Shown in pieces: positions 2,669 to 39,725 of a stretch of DNA of 64,000 nucleotides. How positions within the stretch are numbered: position 1 is the stretch's first letter; every line of letters begins with the position of its first letter. Under the pieces are notes generated by a model, which did no database searches, had not been told where the DNA came from, and saw nothing but the letters and a program-made list of their open reading frames with translations. Source of the stretch: Ruminococcus sp. (GTDB lineage Bacteria; Bacillota; Clostridia; Oscillospirales; Ruminococcaceae); assembly GCA_015066805.1 (NCBI GenBank), contig SVNP01000009.1:1-64000 (forward strand). The letters run 5' to 3'. Made by a program: the position numbers and the translations under genes.

Positions 2669-3295
2669 TCAGGTGTTCTTCATAATAATGGAGCCTACAC
2701 ATTCGCTGACGTGCTCGCAGGCATCGGCACAGGCCTCCAGACAGTCGTAGATCTTGTACCATGCGATTTTTTCAAAGGCATCGGCCTTGCCCTTGGTAAT
2801 GCTGCGTACAGAGGAAAGATACAACTTATCGCAAGCCTCCTCCACATCATTGCAGGCTACGATCAGGGAATGGAGCTTTTTGGATTTCTTGAAGTTTTCA
2901 AACTCCTCCATGATCTCACCCAGCAGATCGCAGGCCTTGACCAGATGCTTTGCATATTCAACAGCATTGGGTTCAATGGTCTGCACGTCAAAGATGTACA
3001 GCTTCTGCATAACCTCTTCCAGCAGATCGGGTACACCATCCATCTGCTGGCTCAGCAGATCCAGATCCTCACGATCCACAGGGGTAACAAAGGCCTTTGC
3101 CAGAGCTTCGTTCATCTCATGCTTTTTCAGGTCCGCACTGTGTTCAAAGGTGTGCATTTTCTCCAGCATGGATTCCAGTTGTGCAGGGTCATACTGCTCC
3201 AGACATTCCACCAGATAAGCAGCCGCATTGCGTGCCAGTGCAGCACAGGCCACATAGTTTTCAAAATAGAACTTATCACCTTTTGCCATGATCAT
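2669..3295 (-). CDS. DUF47 / PhoU-like protein
   Basis: 208 aa helical protein (KGDKFYFENYVACAALARNAAAYL...); followed directly by a PiT transporter, the usual DUF47 neighbour. Confidence 0.85.
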   Translation of the reverse strand: MIMAKGDKFYFENYVACAALARNAAAYLVECLEQYDPAQLESMLEKMHTFEHSADLKKHEMNEALAKAFVTPVDREDLDLLSQQMDGVPDLLEEVMQKLYIFDVQTIEPNAVEYAKHLVKACDLLGEIMEEFENFKKSKKLHSLIVACNDVEEACDKLYLSSVRSITKGKADAFEKIAWYKIYDCLEACADACEHVSECVGSIIMKNT

Positions 3296-3320
3296 TCCAT
3301 CCTTTCTGTAATTGATCGCA

Positions 3321-4391
3321 TTATGCGAAAATCAACATAAACAGCTTTGTCATCAGGTATCCCACCAGACCACAGCCCGGGAAGGTCAGTACCCATGTCA
3401 GCACCATTTCCTTTACTACGCCGAAGTTTATGGCAGATACCCGCTTGACCGCACCCACACCCATGATAGATGTGGTCTTTGCGTGTGTAGTTGATACCGG
3501 CAGACTGAAAACCGAACAGAACAGCAAAGACAATGCTGCTGCAATATCAGCGGAAAAGCCCTGATACTTTTCCAGCTTGACCATATCCATACCCACGGAT
3601 TTGATGATCTTTTTGCCGCCCATGGCAGTACCCAGAGCCATTACCACAGAGCATACGATCATCAGCCATACGGGAATACTGATATCGGAAGGCAAAGACT
3701 GCCCGTGGGACATATATACGCAAAGCAGGATCACACCCATAAATTTCTGGCCATCCTGTGCACCGTGCATAAATGCCATGGAGGCTGCACCTGCAATCTG
3801 TGCGCCACGGAAAAAGGGCTCGGTTTTGGGACGGTTGGCCTTTGCAAACAGCTTGGTGACCAGCTTGCACACGCACCAGCCGAGTCCGAAGCCCAATATC
3901 ACGGAAATAAAGATACCGTAAACTACCTTGACCCACTCGCTGCCATTTACGCCTTCAAAGCTGTTGTGAATGGCAATGGCACTGCCGGTCAGACCGGCGA
4001 TCAGTGCATGGCTTTCACTGGTGGGAATACCGAATACCCATGCAAGCGTGGCCCAAAGCACAATGGCGAACAATGCCGCACTGAGCGCAATAATGGCAAG
4101 ATCCGGATCTGTGCCGAAATCCACCATTTTGGTGATGGTTTCCGCTACGGTGGCGTTGACCATAGTCATGACGAATACACCCAGGAAATTAAATACCGCA
4201 GCCATGAGAATGGCAGCCTTGGGCGGCATACATCTGGTCACCACACAGGTTGCAATGGCGTTGGGGGCATCTGTCCAGCCGTTGACCAGTATCACACCCA
4301 GTGTCAGTACCACTGCAATAAACAGCAGGGGATTGGCAGTCATCTGGTTCCAAAAAGAGAGTATGTCCATATGCTTCTTCCTTTTCTTCAT
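3321..4391 (-). CDS. Inorganic phosphate transporter, PiT family
   Basis: VNGWTDAPNAIATCVVTR and VSTTHAKTTSIMGVGAVKR signatures, multi-TM. Confidence 0.92.
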   Translation of the reverse strand: MKKRKKHMDILSFWNQMTANPLLFIAVVLTLGVILVNGWTDAPNAIATCVVTRCMPPKAAILMAAVFNFLGVFVMTMVNATVAETITKMVDFGTDPDLAIIALSAALFAIVLWATLAWVFGIPTSESHALIAGLTGSAIAIHNSFEGVNGSEWVKVVYGIFISVILGFGLGWCVCKLVTKLFAKANRPKTEPFFRGAQIAGAASMAFMHGAQDGQKFMGVILLCVYMSHGQSLPSDISIPVWLMIVCSVVMALGTAMGGKKIIKSVGMDMVKLEKYQGFSADIAAALSLLFCSVFSLPVSTTHAKTTSIMGVGAVKRVSAINFGVVKEMVLTWVLTFPGCGLVGYLMTKLFMLIFA

Positions 4392-30260: not shown

Positions 30261-32549
30261 ATGTCTGAACAGAATCAAAAGCTGACCCCACAGCAGCAGA
30301 TCCGACTGGTGGGCGGCGGGTCGTTTTTCGGCTCTGCCCATATGCCCGAGGCGGGTATTCCACGGCTGCAATTGCTGGATGGCGGCACGGGCATGAACTT
30401 TGAACAGCTTTTCGGGGATTTTTTGAGCTTCGCCGGCAAAGGCGGCATCGGAAGCGATGCTTTGCGGGCGGTACTGGCACATTTTTACACACCGGAGCAG
30501 CTCCCCAATGAGGATTCCAAAGCCCTGTATGAATGGATCTATGCAAGGCTGAAGGAGCGTTTTCCCTCTATGACACCGCCCGGATGCTATCCTCCCGGTA
30601 TTTTGCTGGGTGCCACATGGAATCCTGAGGTGATTGAAGCGGTAGGCGAAGCATTGGGCACGGAGGCCTCTGCCTATGGTGTGAATGTTCTGCTGGGTAC
30701 ACCCAATGTGAATCTGCACAGAGATGTACGCAACGGCAGATTGTTTGAGGGCTATTCTGAGGATCCCTGCGTGGTGGCTGCTTTGGCACCCTCTATGGTC
30801 AGAGGTGTGCAGAAGTTCGGTGTAGCTGCCAATGTGAAGCATTTTGCTGCCAATAATCAGGAAACCAACCGTCTGGGCATCAATGAAATGATCCCCGAGC
30901 GTGCGCTGCATGAGCTGTACTATCCCGGCTTCCGTGCCTGTGTAGATGCAGGTGTGGCTACGGTGATGAGTGCCTATAACCGCATCAATGGTGTACCCTG
31001 CACCGAAAATCACGCCCTGCTTACGGAGCTGCTCCGTGATGAATGGGGCTTTGATGGCCTTGTGATGTCCGATTGGGGTGCGGTATATCATCCTGCGGCG
31101 GCTGTCAATGCAGGCAATGATCTGCAAATGCCGGGGCCTGTTTCTCCCGATGCTTTGACGGCTGCGCTGGCAGATGGTTCTCTGGATCCTGCGGCGTTGG
31201 AGCGTTCCGCACAGCGGATGCTGCGGCTGACAGAGCGTTATGCCCGTCCCGCACAGGGCGAGATCTCCGAGGAGATCACCGACAAAGCCGCCTATGATGC
31301 CGCTGCTGAGGGTATTGTGATGCTGAAAAATAAAGGCGGCTGCTGTCCCCTTGCAGCGGAAACACATCTGGCACTGTACGGCAAACATGCCGAATGGCTT
31401 CTGACCTGCGGAGAAGGCAGCGCGGGGATCCATACCACCCGAAATATCGGGCTGGCAGATGCACTTGCTTGCCGATTTGCATCTGTTGCGCTGCATACCA
31501 TGCCGCAAACAGCAGATGCACTGGTGTATGTATACGGTCTGCCGGGGCAGGAGGGCAATGATCTGAAAACCATTGGCGTACGGAAGGAGGTTTCCGAAGA
31601 ATGGGAAATCCTTCTTGCAGAGGCCGAAGCCAAGGGCATGAAGAAAATTCTGCTGCTGAATGTGGCGGCACCTGTGGCTCTGGGAGAGTGGGAGCAGCGG
31701 TTTGATGCTGTATTCTGCTTATGGCTGCCGGGTATGCAGGGTGCCAATGCCATTGCGGATATTCTTTGCGGTAAGGTGAATCCCAGTGGCAAGCTGCCTC
31801 TTTCCTGGCCGAAATGCTTGGAGCAGATGCCCACCTATCTGAATTTCCCCGGGGATGGCATGCAGGTCTGCTACGGAGAAGGCATTTTTGTGGGCTACCG
31901 CTGGTATGATAAACGAGAGCTGGCACCTTTGTATCCCTTTGGCCATGGATTGTCTTACAGTGATTTTACGGTAGATGCCATTACGTCTGATCGCAGCTTA
32001 TTTGCCGATGCCCTTCATGTGACAGTGACTGTGACCAATCACAGCCGGCAAGACGGCAAAACCGTGGTGCAGCTCTATGTGACGGATCCTTACAGCACCC
32101 TGACTAAGCCTGTGCGGGAGCTGAAAGCCTTCCGCAAGATCATGGTAGCCGCCGGCAGTACAGAACAAGTCACTTTTTCGCTTTCTGTGCAGGATTTTGC
32201 AAGCTATGACCCTGATCTGCATACATGGGTGACGGAAGAGGGCGAATATGTGCTTTCAGCAGGCTTATCTTCCCGTGAGATACAGGCAAGCTGTACGGTT
32301 TATGCAGATGTGTGTTCCCCCTACACCTATGGCAAAAACACCTCGGTAAAGGTGATGATGGAAACAGAGCCGCTGCGAGAGATGGTCAAAGCCTTCTTTG
32401 TGCAGCACTCCATGCCGTGGCCGGCGATGCTCAGCTCCTACGAGTACACACCACAGGATAAAGTTTCCAAGATTCTGGGCGATTGCGGTTGCGATCCCCG
32501 GCAGGCGGCAGTGCTTTACCGGCAGATGTCTGCTGTGGAAAAGCCATAA
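30261..32549 (+). CDS. GH3 beta-glucosidase
   Basis: GH3 motifs VAANVKHFAANNQETNR, RDEWGFDGLVMSDWGAVY; fibronectin-III-like C-terminus; no signal peptide. Confidence 0.93.
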   Translation: MSEQNQKLTPQQQIRLVGGGSFFGSAHMPEAGIPRLQLLDGGTGMNFEQLFGDFLSFAGKGGIGSDALRAVLAHFYTPEQLPNEDSKALYEWIYARLKERFPSMTPPGCYPPGILLGATWNPEVIEAVGEALGTEASAYGVNVLLGTPNVNLHRDVRNGRLFEGYSEDPCVVAALAPSMVRGVQKFGVAANVKHFAANNQETNRLGINEMIPERALHELYYPGFRACVDAGVATVMSAYNRINGVPCTENHALLTELLRDEWGFDGLVMSDWGAVYHPAAAVNAGNDLQMPGPVSPDALTAALADGSLDPAALERSAQRMLRLTERYARPAQGEISEEITDKAAYDAAAEGIVMLKNKGGCCPLAAETHLALYGKHAEWLLTCGEGSAGIHTTRNIGLADALACRFASVALHTMPQTADALVYVYGLPGQEGNDLKTIGVRKEVSEEWEILLAEAEAKGMKKILLLNVAAPVALGEWEQRFDAVFCLWLPGMQGANAIADILCGKVNPSGKLPLSWPKCLEQMPTYLNFPGDGMQVCYGEGIFVGYRWYDKRELAPLYPFGHGLSYSDFTVDAITSDRSLFADALHVTVTVTNHSRQDGKTVVQLYVTDPYSTLTKPVRELKAFRKIMVAAGSTEQVTFSLSVQDFASYDPDLHTWVTEEGEYVLSAGLSSREIQASCTVYADVCSPYTYGKNTSVKVMMETEPLREMVKAFFVQHSMPWPAMLSSYEYTPQDKVSKILGDCGCDPRQAAVLYRQMSAVEKP

Positions 32550-32600: not shown

Positions 32601-34037
32601 TTATGCGTTCTCGATGCACTTCAGCAGCATCTCACGCAGTACCTGGGGATTGCAGTTGCCCTTCAGTTCCTTCATGCACTTACCAAACAGTGCCATCAGA
32701 GCCTTTTCCTTGCCGCTCTTGTAATCGGCAACAGACTTGGGATCGGCAGCCACAATGCGCTGAATGGTCTCCTCAATGGCACCCGTATCGTTGGAAACGA
32801 TAAAGCCGTTTTCGGTAGCATATGCCAGAGGGTCAATGTCCTGTTCAAACATAACGGAGAGGATCTTCTTTGCATTGCCGCGGCTGACTTTGTCCTCAGC
32901 CACCAGCTTGATGAGCTCGCCCAGTGCCTTGCCGCTGATGCGGAGCATATCGGCAGTCTGCTGCTTTTTATTGAGAATATTGTAGCAATCGGAGATCAGC
33001 CAGTTTGCAGCCTCTTTCGCCATGCCACAGACAGCGTAAGCATCCTCAAAGCAATCGCAGAAGGCACGGCTCTGGGTGAGCTGCTCGGCATCGTACTCGC
33101 TCAGACCCAGTTCGGTGATATACCGCTGTTTTTTCAGCTCAGGCAGTTCAGGCAGAGAATCGCAGATGCGCTGATACCATGCGTCATCAATGACCACAGG
33201 CATAATGTTGGGGTCAGGGAAATAGCGGTAATCGCCGGCAGTTTCCTTGTTGCGCATAGAGTAGCTCTTGCCCTTGATATCGTCCCAGCGGCGGGTCTCC
33301 TGCACCAGCTCCTCGGTGCCGTTTTCCAATGCGTCAATGTGGCGTGCCACCTCGTAGTCAATGGCGCGGGTAATGGCGGAGATGGAGTTCATGTTCTTCA
33401 TCTCGGTACGCACACCCAGCTTATCGCTGCCCTCGGGACGGATGGAAAGGTTCACGTCGCAGCGCATGGAGCCCTGCTCCATACGGCAATCGGAGACTTT
33501 TGCAAAGCGCAGCAGGGTTCTCAGCCGTTCCAGATAAGCCACAACTTCCTCTGCACTGGAGAGATCAGGCTGACTGACGATCTCGATCAGCGGTACGCTG
33601 GTACGGTTAAAGTCCACCAGAGAGGTATCGGTCCAGTCATCATGAACCAGCTTGCCGGCATCCTCTTCCATGTGGATCTGCTTGATGCGGATGGTCTTCT
33701 TACCCTTGGAGGTCTCGATCTCCACGGCACCGTTCACGCAAACGGGTGCAAACCACTGGGTGGTCTGATAAGAACAGGGGAGATCGGGGTAGTAGTAGCT
33801 CTTTTTATCAAAGGTGGTGGTGCGGTTGATCTTACAGTTGAGCATCATACCCGCAGTCATACCCAGATCCACCACGCGCTTGTTGACCACAGGCAGCATA
33901 CCGGGCATACCGCAGCAGGCGGGGCAGACATGGTCATTCTGCTCGCCACCGAATTTTGCGGAGCAGGAGCAGAAAATTTTCGATTCGGTAGCAAGTTCGA
34001 TGTGAACCTCCAGACCGATGACAGTCTCGTATTTCAT
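32601..34037 (-). CDS. gatB: Asp/Glu-tRNA amidotransferase subunit B
   Basis: MKYETVIGLEVHIELATESKIFCSC...CPACCGMPGMLPVVNKR..., HMEEDAGKLVHD, QETRRWDD, DYRYFPDPNI. Confidence 0.95.
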   Translation of the reverse strand: MKYETVIGLEVHIELATESKIFCSCSAKFGGEQNDHVCPACCGMPGMLPVVNKRVVDLGMTAGMMLNCKINRTTTFDKKSYYYPDLPCSYQTTQWFAPVCVNGAVEIETSKGKKTIRIKQIHMEEDAGKLVHDDWTDTSLVDFNRTSVPLIEIVSQPDLSSAEEVVAYLERLRTLLRFAKVSDCRMEQGSMRCDVNLSIRPEGSDKLGVRTEMKNMNSISAITRAIDYEVARHIDALENGTEELVQETRRWDDIKGKSYSMRNKETAGDYRYFPDPNIMPVVIDDAWYQRICDSLPELPELKKQRYITELGLSEYDAEQLTQSRAFCDCFEDAYAVCGMAKEAANWLISDCYNILNKKQQTADMLRISGKALGELIKLVAEDKVSRGNAKKILSVMFEQDIDPLAYATENGFIVSNDTGAIEETIQRIVAADPKSVADYKSGKEKALMALFGKCMKELKGNCNPQVLREMLLKCIENA

Positions 34038-34051
34038 GTTGTATTCCCTCC

Positions 34052-35233
34052 TTATTCGTACAGGGCAGCCAGAGTCAGCAGGCTGTCATCGGAGAACGCC
34101 TTGCCCATAAGCTGTACGCCGCCTGCGGCGACAACGGGCAGGCCGCTGATGGATGCGGGGGCAGTAAACAGCGCCTCCTCCACGGCGGTATAAGTGCCGA
34201 CTTCTTCGGTCTTGTAGGCGGTTTTGGAGCAGGCAGGCAGCAGCAGAGCATCATACTGTGCAAACAGCGCAGCAAATGCCTCACAGATCACACGGCGGAT
34301 ACGCAGTGCTTTATCGTAAACATTCATGTAGTTTTCGGTAGAAAGGGCATCGGAGCCGTAGAGGATGGCAGTTTTCAGCAGCAGACCGAAGGCCTCGGTA
34401 CGGCTGTTGGTGTACAGCTCATCAATATTGGTGTAGTTGGGGGTACGGTAGCCGAATTTGATGCCGTCATAGCGGGAAACATTGTTGCACAGCTCAGCGG
34501 AAAGCAGTACATTCCAGGCAGGGCTTGCGGCCTTGCATACATCGTCATCCACCGTGCAGATCTCCACGCCCTGTGCCTTCAGCGCATCACATACAGCGGT
34601 GATGCGTGCCTGTGTATCGGCATCGGCAGCGTTGACAAGGGATTGCAGCACAGCCACCTTCTTGATGGGTGCGCCTGCGGTTTTCACGGCAGCGCACTGC
34701 TCCTCGGAAAGGCTGGTACCGTCCTTGTCATCATGGCCTGCCATGGCAGCCAGAATCTCACGGCAATCGGCGGTATTTCTTGCCATAACGCCCACAGTTT
34801 CACCGGAGCAGGCAACGGGAATGGTGCCGTAGCGGGAGACTGTACCGTAGGTAGGCTTGATATAGACCATACCGCTGAGTGCAGCGGCACGGCGGGGCAT
34901 ACCGTTTACATCCATGGCAACTACTGCCTTGATGTCGCCGGTCTTCAGCACTTCTGCCGCAGCAGAGGTCAGAACACCGTTTTCGTCGGTGCAGGCACCG
35001 AAATAAGAGGACTCACCCAGCAGGTCAATGGAAAACTCGCCCACATTCACCTTTCCGCCGATCTCATAGCCGGCATTGGTCAGGCGGGTAATCACTTCCG
35101 CATCAAACAGGCCTTGGTAGCCTTCCAGCATCTTGGAGCCGGCAGAGGTAGGCATGGTTTTGGTCAGGATCATATCATCCGGCACAACAGTGTTGGCACC
35201 CTTTGCGCCGTTTTCGGTAATATACAGCTTCAT
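34052..35233 (-). CDS. GatA-like amidase-fold protein lacking the recognisable catalytic triad
   Basis: Aligns with GatA over TSAGSKMLEGYQGLFDAEVITRLTNAGYEIGGKVNVGEFSID and IKPTYGTVSRYGTIPVACSGETVGVMARNTADCREILAAMAGHDDKDGTS, but has no GGSSGGS or DTGGSIR motif. Located between gatC and gatB. Confidence 0.85.
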   Translation of the reverse strand: MKLYITENGAKGANTVVPDDMILTKTMPTSAGSKMLEGYQGLFDAEVITRLTNAGYEIGGKVNVGEFSIDLLGESSYFGACTDENGVLTSAAAEVLKTGDIKAVVAMDVNGMPRRAAALSGMVYIKPTYGTVSRYGTIPVACSGETVGVMARNTADCREILAAMAGHDDKDGTSLSEEQCAAVKTAGAPIKKVAVLQSLVNAADADTQARITAVCDALKAQGVEICTVDDDVCKAASPAWNVLLSAELCNNVSRYDGIKFGYRTPNYTNIDELYTNSRTEAFGLLLKTAILYGSDALSTENYMNVYDKALRIRRVICEAFAALFAQYDALLLPACSKTAYKTEEVGTYTAVEEALFTAPASISGLPVVAAGGVQLMGKAFSDDSLLTLAALYE

Positions 35234-35252: not shown

Positions 35253-35537
35253 TCACTCAATAAGACGCGGTACCTGCCAGTAGCCGTCGTAGGTTTCGGG
35301 TGCACTTTCCTGCAGTTCATCTCTGGTAAACAGCTTGATCTCCCGATCCTCGCGCACAACGGTCAGAATAGGCATCACATGGACCATACGCTCGGTATTC
35401 TCGGTGTTGATCTGATTCAGGGCTAAGAAAACGTCTGCCTGCTGATTGAAAAATGCCGTGATCGTATCCTTTTCGGCATCCGTCAGGCAGAGCTGATTCA
35501 GCTTTTCGAGTCTTTGCAGAGTTTCAGTAGTCATCAT
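35253..35537 (-). CDS. gatC: Asp/Glu-tRNA amidotransferase subunit C
   Basis: 94 aa, C-terminus LQESAPETYDGYWQVPRLIE matches the GatC C-terminal pattern; operon position. Confidence 0.85.
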   Translation of the reverse strand: MMTTETLQRLEKLNQLCLTDAEKDTITAFFNQQADVFLALNQINTENTERMVHVMPILTVVREDREIKLFTRDELQESAPETYDGYWQVPRLIE

Positions 35538-35791: not shown

Positions 35792-36829
35792 ATGTCTCAG
35801 TGGACAAAACGCAGCACATACTATTATGATCTGCCCGAGGAACGGATCGCCCAGACGCCCGTAACACCTCGCAGCGCATCCCGTATGCTGTGTCTGGATC
35901 GTCAAAGCGGTGCTGTGGCACATCATCATTTTTATGAACTGGGAGATTTCCTGCGGGAAGGCGACCTGCTGGTCATGAACGATTCCCGTGTGCTGCCTGC
36001 CCGTTTGTATGGTGTAAAAACAGAAAACAATACCCCCATCGAGTTCCTGCTGCTGCACGCCGTGGAGCAGAATGTATGGGAGATCATCTGCAAGCCCGCA
36101 AAGAAAGCAAAAGTCGGTACAAGGTTTTCCTTTGGTGACGGCCGGCTGGAGGCCGAGGTGCTTGGCGTTACCGAGGATGGCGGCCGATTGGTGCGGTTCT
36201 TCTGCGAGGGCAATCTGTATGCCGTGCTGGATGAGATCGGGCAGATGCCCCTGCCTCCCTATATTACGGAACGTCTTACCGATCGGGAACGCTACCAGAC
36301 CGTATATGCCAAGGAGGTCGGCTCTGCGGCTGCCCCCACGGCCGGCTTGCATTTTACGCCCGAGCTGCTGGAGGAGCTTCGGCAAAAGGGTGTGCGTACC
36401 GCTTTTGTGACTCTCCATGTAGGGCTTGGTACCTTCCGCCCCGTAAAGGCAGATGACATCCGGGAGCATCATATGCATACGGAGCATTATGCCATCTCCG
36501 AAGAAACCGCCGCTTTGATTCGTGAAACAAAGGCAAAGGGCGGCAGAGTCATTGCTGTGGGCACCACCTCCTGCCGCACGTTGGAGGGTGCCATGCAGTC
36601 CAGAGGCGAGATCTGCGCCTGCGACGGCGATACGGGTATTTTCATCTATCCGCCCTATGATTTCCGCTGTATTGACGGTTTGCTGACCAATTTCCATCTG
36701 CCGGAATCCACACTGATCATGCTGGTATCTGCCTTTGCAGGCTATGAGCATACCATGCAGGCCTATCAGATCGCCGTAAATGAAAAATATCGCTTCTTCA
36801 GCTTTGGCGATGCTATGCTGATTTTGTGA
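35792..36829 (+). CDS. queA: tRNA preQ1(34) S-adenosylmethionine ribosyltransferase-isomerase
   Basis: [22 protein letters not shown]...[25 protein letters not shown]...[18 protein letters not shown]. Confidence 0.96.
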
Positions 36830-36860: not shown

Positions 36861-38291
36861 ATGTTGAATCCCTTGCTTCGTAAAACAAAAATCGTTTGTA
36901 CCATGGGCCCCTCTACCGATTCCGACGCTGTACTGCGTCAGATGATGCAGGCAGGCATGAATGTGGCGCGCTTCAATTTTTCCCACTCTGTTTATGAGAA
37001 GGATAAGGAACGCTTTGAGCGTGTGGTGCGTCTGCGGGAAGAACTGGGTCTGCCCATTGCTACCATGCTGGATACCAAAGGCCCCGAGGTGCGCCTGCGC
37101 AGCTTTCCCAACGGCCCTGTGGAGATCGAGGATGGTGCCAAATATACGCTGACCACCCGTGATGTTCCCTGTGACGATCAGGTGGGCAGCGTGAATTTTG
37201 CCCGTCTGACCCATGATGTCAAGCCCGGTGATACTGTTATGATCAATGATGGCCTGGTGGAGCTTTGCGTGGAGCATGTTTCCGCTACCGAAGTGGAGTG
37301 CCGGGTGGTGCGCGGCGGCGTGCTTTCTGCCAACAAATCCTGTAATTTCCCCGGCGTAAATCTTTCCATGCCCTATCTCAGTGATGCGGATATGAACGAT
37401 CTGGAGTTCGGTGCCAAGCTGGGCTTTGATTTCATTGCGGCAAGCTTTGCCCGTACCGGTGCGGATATCCGCTACCTGCGGAAGTTTACCCAGAGCCTTG
37501 GCTGGTATGATGTACGCATCATCGCCAAGATCGAAAACCGTGAGGGTGTGGAAAACATTGATGAGATTCTGGAAGCCGCAGACGGCATTATGGTTGCCCG
37601 CGGCGATATGGGTGTGGAGATCCCCTTTGAACAGATCCCTGCCATCCAGAAGGAGCTGATCCGTAAGGGCTATGAGGCAGGCAAGCAGGTCATTACCGCT
37701 ACTCAGATGCTGGAATCCATGATCCAGCATTCCCGCCCCACCCGTGCGGAGATCACCGATGTGGCAAATGCCATTTATGACGGCACCAGCGCACTGATGC
37801 TTTCCGGTGAAACTGCTGCGGGGCAATATCCCGTGGAGGCAGTACGCACCATGGAGCGCATTGCCGTGACCACCGAGCGGGATATCGACTATAAGGGCAG
37901 GTTTATGAAACGGGAAGCGGGCCGTGTGGGTATTGCCGATGCCATTGCCCATGCAACCGTTACCACTGCCCATGATCTGGATGCAGATGCTATTATTACC
38001 GTTACCAAGGGCGGAGAAACCGCCAGACTGATCTCCAAGTACCGCCCCATGTTCCCCATTATCTCCTGCACCACCGAGGAACGGGTACAGCGGCAGATGA
38101 ATCTTTCATGGGGCGTGTATCCGCTGGTGATCTCCGAAGAAACCAATACGGATGATCTGTTCCGTCATGCAGTGGATGCCTCCTGCAAAGCAGGCTACAC
38201 TGAGCCGAGAGATCTGGTGGTGATCACCGCAGGTGTACCGCTGGGTGTTTCGGGCACTACCAATCTGCTGAAGGTAGAAAATGTTGAGTAA
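36861..38291 (+). CDS. pyk: Pyruvate kinase
   Basis: RKTKIVCTMGPSTDS...ARFNFSH...MVARGDMGVEIPFEQIP...TATQMLESMI. Confidence 0.97.
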   Translation: MLNPLLRKTKIVCTMGPSTDSDAVLRQMMQAGMNVARFNFSHSVYEKDKERFERVVRLREELGLPIATMLDTKGPEVRLRSFPNGPVEIEDGAKYTLTTRDVPCDDQVGSVNFARLTHDVKPGDTVMINDGLVELCVEHVSATEVECRVVRGGVLSANKSCNFPGVNLSMPYLSDADMNDLEFGAKLGFDFIAASFARTGADIRYLRKFTQSLGWYDVRIIAKIENREGVENIDEILEAADGIMVARGDMGVEIPFEQIPAIQKELIRKGYEAGKQVITATQMLESMIQHSRPTRAEITDVANAIYDGTSALMLSGETAAGQYPVEAVRTMERIAVTTERDIDYKGRFMKREAGRVGIADAIAHATVTTAHDLDADAIITVTKGGETARLISKYRPMFPIISCTTEERVQRQMNLSWGVYPLVISEETNTDDLFRHAVDASCKAGYTEPRDLVVITAGVPLGVSGTTNLLKVENVE

Positions 38292-38375: not shown

Positions 38376-39725
38376 TCATACCACGCCCAGCAGGGAGGAA
38401 ACAAAGATCATCAGCAGGATCACAGGTGCAATGTAGCGGATGACCACACGGTACAGCTTCTTTGCCTTGAAGGGCTTGGTCAGCTCTACTTCTTCCTCTA
38501 CGGTTTTGGTGCCGAGAATATAACCCACCAGAATACAGGTGACCAGCGCAACCAGCGGCATGATCACATTGTTGCTGATGAAATCGAAGAAATCCAGGAT
38601 CTGCTTGCCCATAATGGTAAATTCCGACCAACTGCTGTAACCCAGCACGGAAAGCATCGCTAACCCAAAGGAAACAGCAAACACGATAAGGCAGGCGGGA
38701 ATGCGCTTCAGCTTGGTGCGTTCACACAGTACCGAAACCAGTGTTTCCATCAGGGAGATAGAAGAAGTCAGGGCAGCCAGCGTGACCAGAATAAAGAAGA
38801 TGATGCCGATGATTCTGCCCTGCCCCATGGATTCAAACACATTGGGCAGCGTAATGAACATCAGGCTGGGACCGGTACCCAAAGCGGATTCATCGCCGCC
38901 GGAGAAAGCAAACACCGCAGGAATGATCATGAGACCGGCCAGAAATGCTACGCCGGTATCAAACAGCTCAATGTGGCGTACCGATTCCTCAATGCCGTCT
39001 TCTTTCCGCATATAGGAGCCGTAGGTAAACAGAATACCCATTGCCAGCGACATGGAATAGAACAACTGACCCATGGCGGCGATCACCGTTTTAATGGAGA
39101 ACTTGGAAAAATCGGGCTTGATGTAGTAGATCAGTCCGTCGATGGCACCATCCACCGTCAGTACATAGCCTGCGATGATCACAGAGATCAGCAGCAGAAT
39201 GGGCATCATGATCTTGCTGACCTTTTCGATGCCTTTTTCCACACCCAGCATAACCACCGCAGCGGTCACACCCATAAACAGGAACATAAACAGGGCAGAA
39301 GGTCCCAGATCACCGATAAAGCTGCTGAAATAAGTACCGTCATCCGCAGCCTGTGGGCCTTGTCCCGTGATATAGACCATCAGATATTTCAGCACCCAGC
39401 CGCCGATGACACAGTAGTAGGGGAAGATGATCAGCGGTACCAATGCGGATACCCAGCCCAGCAGCCCGAATTTCGGGTGGAGCTGCCGATATGCGCCCAC
39501 AACGCTCTTGCCGGTTTTTCTGCCCAGTGCAATTTCCGTGACCATCAGCGTAAATCCAAAGGTCACTGCCAGAATCAGGTAGACCAGCAAAAAGATGCCG
39601 CCGCCGTACTGTGCGGCCAGATAGGGAAATCGCCACAAATTGCCCAGACCCACGGCGGAGCCTGCCGCAGCCAGAACAAATCCCAGCTTGGAGCTGAAGC
39701 TGCTTTTCTTTTCCTGCATAAACAA
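38376..39725 (-). CDS. Sodium-dependent transporter, neurotransmitter:sodium symporter (SNF) family
   Basis: FVLAAAGSAVGLGNLWRFPYLAAQYGGGIFLLVYLI. Confidence 0.93.
   Translation of the reverse strand: MFMQEKKSSFSSKLGFVLAAAGSAVGLGNLWRFPYLAAQYGGGIFLLVYLILAVTFGFTLMVTEIALGRKTGKSVVGAYRQLHPKFGLLGWVSALVPLIIFPYYCVIGGWVLKYLMVYITGQGPQAADDGTYFSSFIGDLGPSALFMFLFMGVTAAVVMLGVEKGIEKVSKIMMPILLLISVIIAGYVLTVDGAIDGLIYYIKPDFSKFSIKTVIAAMGQLFYSMSLAMGILFTYGSYMRKEDGIEESVRHIELFDTGVAFLAGLMIIPAVFAFSGGDESALGTGPSLMFITLPNVFESMGQGRIIGIIFFILVTLAALTSSISLMETLVSVLCERTKLKRIPACLIVFAVSFGLAMLSVLGYSSWSEFTIMGKQILDFFDFISNNVIMPLVALVTCILVGYILGTKTVEEEVELTKPFKAKKLYRVVIRYIAPVILLMIFVSSLLGVV

Follow-up and report, generated by a model that had tools for sequence, protein, structure and literature searches.

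The GatCAB amidotransferase of a Ruminococcus genome is, judged by sequence and fold comparison, a variant and not a regular member of its family, because features that define the GatA subunit were absent when tested. We consider it likely that the enzyme depends on ammonia, with GatA serving as a scaffold pseudoenzyme, and that this ammonia is either free or provided by a partner, e.g. a linked asparaginase homologue. GatCAB is regarded as a glutamine-dependent enzyme in which the glutaminase of GatA is tightly coupled to GatB via an ammonia tunnel. A search of the openly accessible literature revealed no report of a triad-less or catalytically dead GatA or of an ammonia-dependent, glutamine-independent GatCAB. 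If the reading given here is true, a widespread and selectively maintained natural GatCAB works without glutaminase, so that the coupling between GatA and GatB can be abandoned, and the translation of Asn (and Gln) codons in gut bacteria is tied directly to the ammonia supply. Furthermore, the triad-less GatCAB would represent a natural test of the non-catalytic roles of GatA, and for annotation pipelines the presence of gatA does not equal the presence of a glutaminase.

The triad-less gatA gene and its product

The window, i.e. the whole stretch of DNA that was analysed, comprises 64,000 nucleotides of a Ruminococcus sp. contig. The features relevant to this study are as follows.

32601..34037, minus strand: gatB, amidotransferase/kinase subunit, 478 aa (PRK05477.1-2 gatB, 600 bits; kinase and zinc residues intact)
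33774..33776, minus strand: gatB codon 88, Cys at an invariant canonical Lys (LPKGYQ; putative tunnel, GatA-GatB interface; alignment)
34052..35233, minus strand: gatA, triad-less, putative pseudo-glutaminase subunit, 393 aa and stop (ORF, HMM, alignment, model)
34172..34174, minus strand: gatA codon 354, Ala at the Gln-binding Asp425 position (Asp in 0/31 triad-less proteins)
34367..34369, minus strand: gatA codon 289, Ala at the Gln-binding Arg358 position (Arg in 0/31 triad-less proteins)
34898..34900, minus strand: gatA codon 112, Met at the position of the canonical nucleophile Ser178 (GSDTGGSIRQ to AMDVNGMPRR; alignment)
34970..34990, minus strand: deletion site of the NPxxxxxVPGGSSGG loop, which holds GGSSGG and cis-Ser154 in canonical GatA (alignment)
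35177..35179, minus strand: gatA codon 19, Asp at the position of the canonical catalytic Lys79 (KDN to DDM; alignment)
35253..35537, minus strand: gatC, 94 aa (TIGR00135, 64 bits; cut-off 47)

The gatA frame is uninterrupted from its ATG start and is preceded by a strong AAAAGGAG ribosome-binding site; gatC and gatB, which flank it at intergenic distances of 19 and 14 bases, respectively, also have a strong ribosome-binding site each. The product scores 171 bits against the Pfam Amidase model and 243.9 bits against TIGR00132 (gatA), the latter below the curated equivalog cut-off of 481.1. Its AlphaFold model (pLDDT 73, pTM 0.82) has the amidase-signature fold, the top Foldseek matches all being GatA chains with TM values of 0.83-0.85. 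Alignment to solved GatA sequences and to canonical GatA proteins from congeneric species showed that the protein is about 90 residues shorter than canonical GatA; about 60 residues are gone at the N-terminus, and it lacks a C-terminal loop some 14 residues long. Thus, the description in the first-pass annotation of this DNA, a GatA relative of about 393 aa with a continuous frame and without the N-terminal 60 or so residues, is borne out by the ORF analysis, the Pfam and TIGR scores, the alignment and the Foldseek search. A local frameshift or assembly error as the origin of this protein is excluded, since the triad-less form recurs in 31 divergent proteins. Matches to GatA that carry a phage label show about 31-32% identity.

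Loss of the glutaminase site

The Lys-cisSer-Ser triad of GatA is absent from the window protein, which has D19 and M112 at the Lys and nucleophile positions and lacks the loop in between. Among the triad-less proteins, the Lys79 position is occupied by Asp or Glu in all 30 that cover the site, and the cis-Ser loop is missing in 31/31. The position of the Ser178 nucleophile holds A, S, M, T, V, E or Y and is therefore not maintained in the lineage; Ser is found in 11 of the 31 proteins. The initial claim that the entire triad has been lost is exact for the window protein, while for the lineage as a whole it applies to the Lys and the cis-Ser only. The glycine of the TGGS motif is also gone. 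Arg358 and Asp425 (S. aureus numbering), which hold the glutamine in solved GatA structures, are replaced by A289 and A354 in the window protein and are missing in 31/31 triad-less proteins. Their glutamine-binding counterparts in yeast are R334 and D418 (PMC4027206). An intact Lys/Ser/Ser placed elsewhere in the protein, a possibility raised at the outset, was found neither in the alignments nor in the fold match. Since Foldseek matches GatA chains while the catalytic and glutamine-binding residues are replaced, the window protein is a GatA fold from which the glutaminase site is gone.

The partner subunits

The kinase and Mg/ATP residues of GatB that were tested (E10, H12, E124/E125, E152, N196 and S198) and its zinc Cys residues are kept in 28/28 partners of triad-less GatA, the intermediate form described below included. 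The position equivalent to yeast T189 holds S or T in both the triad-less and the canonical group. GatB is not a GatE-type kinase, as it scores 530-600 bits as gatB and 121 bits against gatE_arch, which is below the cut-off. In a phylogenetic tree, all GatBs that go with triad-less GatA group in a single clade (100/100) separate from 21 canonical-partner GatBs.

Lys88 of GatB is present in 21/21 canonical proteins and in 0/28 partners of triad-less GatA. It corresponds to Lys89 of H. pylori GatB, which belongs to the tunnel where GatA and GatB meet. In H. pylori, mutation of GatB Lys89 impairs coupling, as does mutation of GatA Thr149, whose equivalent (T175) is replaced in the triad-less set, mostly by Val. 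With both Lys88 and the Thr149 equivalent replaced, the apparatus coupling GatA to GatB looks dismantled on both sides, and the loss of Lys88 looks like the counterpart, in the tunnel, of the changes in GatA. Because the tunnel Lys itself is lost, the ammonia route would not simply be the canonical one, which counts against the mechanism proposed below.

Distribution and evolution of triad-less GatA

Scans of 299 genomes of the family, 394 of the order and 399 of the phylum, plus GTDB contigs, yielded 31 triad-less proteins, most of them 370-415 aa long, and one intermediate. Besides the window's genome, 30 genomes encode triad-less GatA of about 400 aa; they span about 20 genera and, within one order, at least 8 GTDB families, plus one in another class; the GTDB contig scan contributed two Clostridia MAGs from roe-deer caecum. 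In the order scan, triad-less proteins scored 498-666 bits, the intermediate 365 bits and canonical GatA at most 284 bits. Three further species of the window's genus carry triad-less GatA (58-66% identity), and most other members of the genus have a canonical GatA (about 35%). The dN/dS values of the gene in two unsaturated pairs are 0.078 and 0.095, i.e. in the range of 0.08-0.10, so it is under purifying selection and not decaying. The concern that only a single strain might show the change was thus dispelled by the survey, which gave 31 divergent proteins spread over a bacterial order, and by the low dN/dS.

The intermediate GatA from G567 (L241, G567:C244, positions 3008-4249, 414 aa) has lost Lys79 yet retains Ser178, part of the SGG loop and the loop at the C-terminus, and so gives some insight into the loss of the active site. 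L130 and L131, which are the most eroded members, lie outside L241 on the GatB tree. Intermediate and branching together suggest that loss of the Lys came first, followed by loss of the loops, partly in parallel. Genome G301 encodes three GatBs (L130, L242 and L258), two adjoining a canonical GatA and one adjoining the most eroded GatA (371 aa). In the genome from another class, a second GatB is encoded on the contig of the triad-less GatCAB (G1009:C4:4888-10403), about 2.5 kb downstream of it, an arrangement suggesting that a resident gatCAB was joined by one acquired through horizontal transfer.

Genomic context and probable tRNA substrates

The usual operon is aspS2-gatC-gatA-gatB with triad-less gatA, found at 26 of 32 triad-less loci. 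The linked AspRS2 is of the RDHGG type and shows about 40% identity to the AspRS encoded beside canonical gatCAB. A fusion of AspRS with GatC was confirmed by HMM in L128 and deduced from protein length in L127, L232 and L238. The AspRS2 gene of the window's genome lies apart from the operon, where a contig ends (L245), and a second, ordinary AspRS is encoded elsewhere (L244). The neighbours of gatCAB in the window are, by eye, a GH3 beta-glucosidase (30261-32549), queA (35792-36829), pyruvate kinase (36861-38291) and an SNF-type Na+ symporter (38376-39725); inspection of these neighbours by eye revealed no obvious ammonia-related gene. At other loci, an AlaX/alanyl-tRNA editing-like gene (by eye) lies 3' of the operon (L128, 10226-11413; L129, 2850-4022), and a divergent asparaginase-like family with TGGT and HGTDT kept is encoded beside it (L123, 10940-11980; L127, 4540-5658; L128, 9097-10242; L229-L234, L236 and L238).

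The window's genome, which is about 80% complete, was searched for a second canonical gatA, a GlnRS and an AsnRS, as proposed in the first-pass annotation. No second GatA-type amidase was found, no AsnRS scored above the cut-off, and the sole GlnRS candidate was rejected as a divergent GluRS (TIGR00464, 299 bits). At this completeness a canonical gatA or glnS could have been missed, though an absence by chance is unlikely, the same lack being seen in seven genomes. In these seven, including the window's, the triad-less complex is the sole GatCAB and GlnRS is absent (G000, G011, G020, G012, G288, G291 and G498; the four MAGs of the window's genus are 80-88% complete, G288 98% and G291 96%).

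AsnRS is missing from 12 of the 13 carriers checked in the family set. GlnRS is present in 4/13 family-set carriers and in 15/17 carriers from the order and phylum scans; a single GatB likewise occurs in 15/17 of the latter. Because AsnRS is mostly absent from the family-set carriers and GlnRS mostly present in those from the order and phylum scans, the typical role of the complex would be the formation of Asn-tRNA, in keeping with the linked second AspRS (26/32 loci) and the AspRS-GatC fusions. Where one triad-less GatB occurs without GlnRS, as in the seven genomes, the same complex should therefore also make Gln-tRNA(Gln). Long divergent GluRS proteins of about 545-568 aa, at the TIGR00464 cut-off, are encoded at L003/L149 (G000:C21) and L144 (G288); as no other GluRS is encoded in these genomes, which lack GlnRS, they are probably non-discriminating.

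Proposed mechanism and source of ammonia

In the mechanism that we propose, AspRS2, in most relatives linked or fused to GatC, would load aspartate on tRNA(Asn). GatA, its glutamine-binding and -hydrolysing residues lost from the sequence, would preserve the amidase fold and the complex but would not supply the NH3. GatB would phosphorylate and then amidate Asp-tRNA(Asn) at its side-chain carboxyl, and likewise Glu-tRNA(Gln) where GlnRS is lacking, since its motifs are intact and no other enzyme for this step is present. The triad-less, presumably essential enzyme of gut and rumen Clostridia thus probably runs on free ammonia or on the ammonia of another enzyme; we infer that free ammonia ranks first and a partner amidase second. 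NH3/NH4+ would most likely enter a remnant of the tunnel, and in some species the asparaginase-like protein encoded beside the operon may boost the NH3 supply. Free NH3 is plausible because such amidotransferases accept NH4Cl. In yeast GatFAB, truncation of the GatF scaffold at the GatA site lowered glutaminase activity and raised transamidation with NH4Cl (PMC4027206). The first-pass idea of a glutaminase-dead GatCAB that is still functional is supported by the lack of an intact triad elsewhere in the protein, by the many divergent members with low dN/dS (0.08-0.10) and by the searches of the window's genome, which gave no second GatA-type amidase, GlnRS or AsnRS. With somewhat less confidence, we favour a broader view: in a lineage of Clostridia, a second, glutamine-independent class of GatCAB would make all Asn-tRNA, and in some species all Gln-tRNA too, via a pseudo-glutaminase GatA, using ammonia from the environment or from an asparaginase-like partner in a transamidosome of AspRS2 with the triad-less GatCAB.

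The presence of an asparaginase-like gene at a third of the loci hints at a partner source and against free NH3. A gene of this kind occurs within some 5 kb of 11/32 triad-less loci versus 1/22 canonical controls (p 0.008 by Fisher's test on 11/30, a value that overstates independence because the loci are related). In six loci it follows gatB in the same direction after 0-55 nt, and in four it lies upstream of aspS. Its product, a PF00710 protein akin to archaeal GatD and to type I asparaginases, scores against both TIGR00519 (asparaginase I) and gatD_arch, below the cut-off in each case, and an unlinked PF00710 gene is found in the window's genome and in all members of the genus checked. Such a protein could be a dedicated donor that has replaced the amidase, docking on the triad-less GatCAB and converting Asn/Gln to Asp/Glu and NH3 in a hybrid of GatCAB with a GatD-like enzyme. 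However, the gene is missing beside two thirds of the triad-less loci, G149, G225, G066 and G301 (98% complete) have no PF00710 match at all, and PF00710 genes also occur in genus members with canonical GatA. In all linked copies the Lys of the asparaginase Thr-Asp-Lys triad is apparently lost, the equivalents of Thr12 and Thr89-Asp90 being kept. We regard such a replacement as unlikely.

Far more doubtful is a rebuilt active site that would leave GatA an amidase. Candidate residues exist, as D19, N110, R115, C249, N250 and D307 differ from canonical GatA, and all of these positions but D19 (D or E) have acquired one residue that at least 93% of the triad-less proteins share. Against this, the glutamine-binding Arg358 and Asp425 and the TGGS glycine are lost, C249 is absent from the two most eroded members, and the acidic D19/R115 exchange is explained equally well by pocket packing or NH4+ binding. 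Least probable of all is a complex that has decayed or taken up a role other than tRNA amidation, for although a canonical GatCAB or a second GatB is also kept in G030, G066, G197, G149, G225, G301, G333 and G1009, the low dN/dS, the invariant GatB active-site residues, the AspRS2 linkage, its status as sole GatCAB in many genomes and the lack of AsnRS in nearly all genomes tested speak against it.

Comparison with known systems

The ammonia-dependent GatCAB proposed here shares with the canonical enzymes of S. aureus, A. aeolicus and the P. aeruginosa Asn-transamidosome the three-subunit operon, the GatA fold, the kinase/amidotransferase and zinc motifs of GatB, GatC and the association with AspRS. 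It differs in a GatA that is about 90 residues shorter and without the Lys-cisSer-Ser triad and the Gln-binding Arg/Asp, and in a GatB without the tunnel Lys88. Bifunctional AspRS-GatC proteins of the PRK12820 type likewise head a gatAB operon, whereas the fusion described here goes with a triad-less GatA and involves a distinct AspRS2. As in archaeal GatDE, an asparaginase-type protein is found beside a GatB-type kinase at some loci; in contrast to GatDE, there is no GatE, the GatA-fold scaffold is kept, and the linked protein falls short of GatD in its score and apparently has no catalytic Lys. In mammalian carbamoyl phosphate synthetase I, a dead glutaminase domain serves as scaffold and the synthetase uses free ammonia. 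The dead glutaminase scaffold is alike in both systems, whereas fold and pathway differ and the substrate of the triad-less GatCAB is tRNA-bound.
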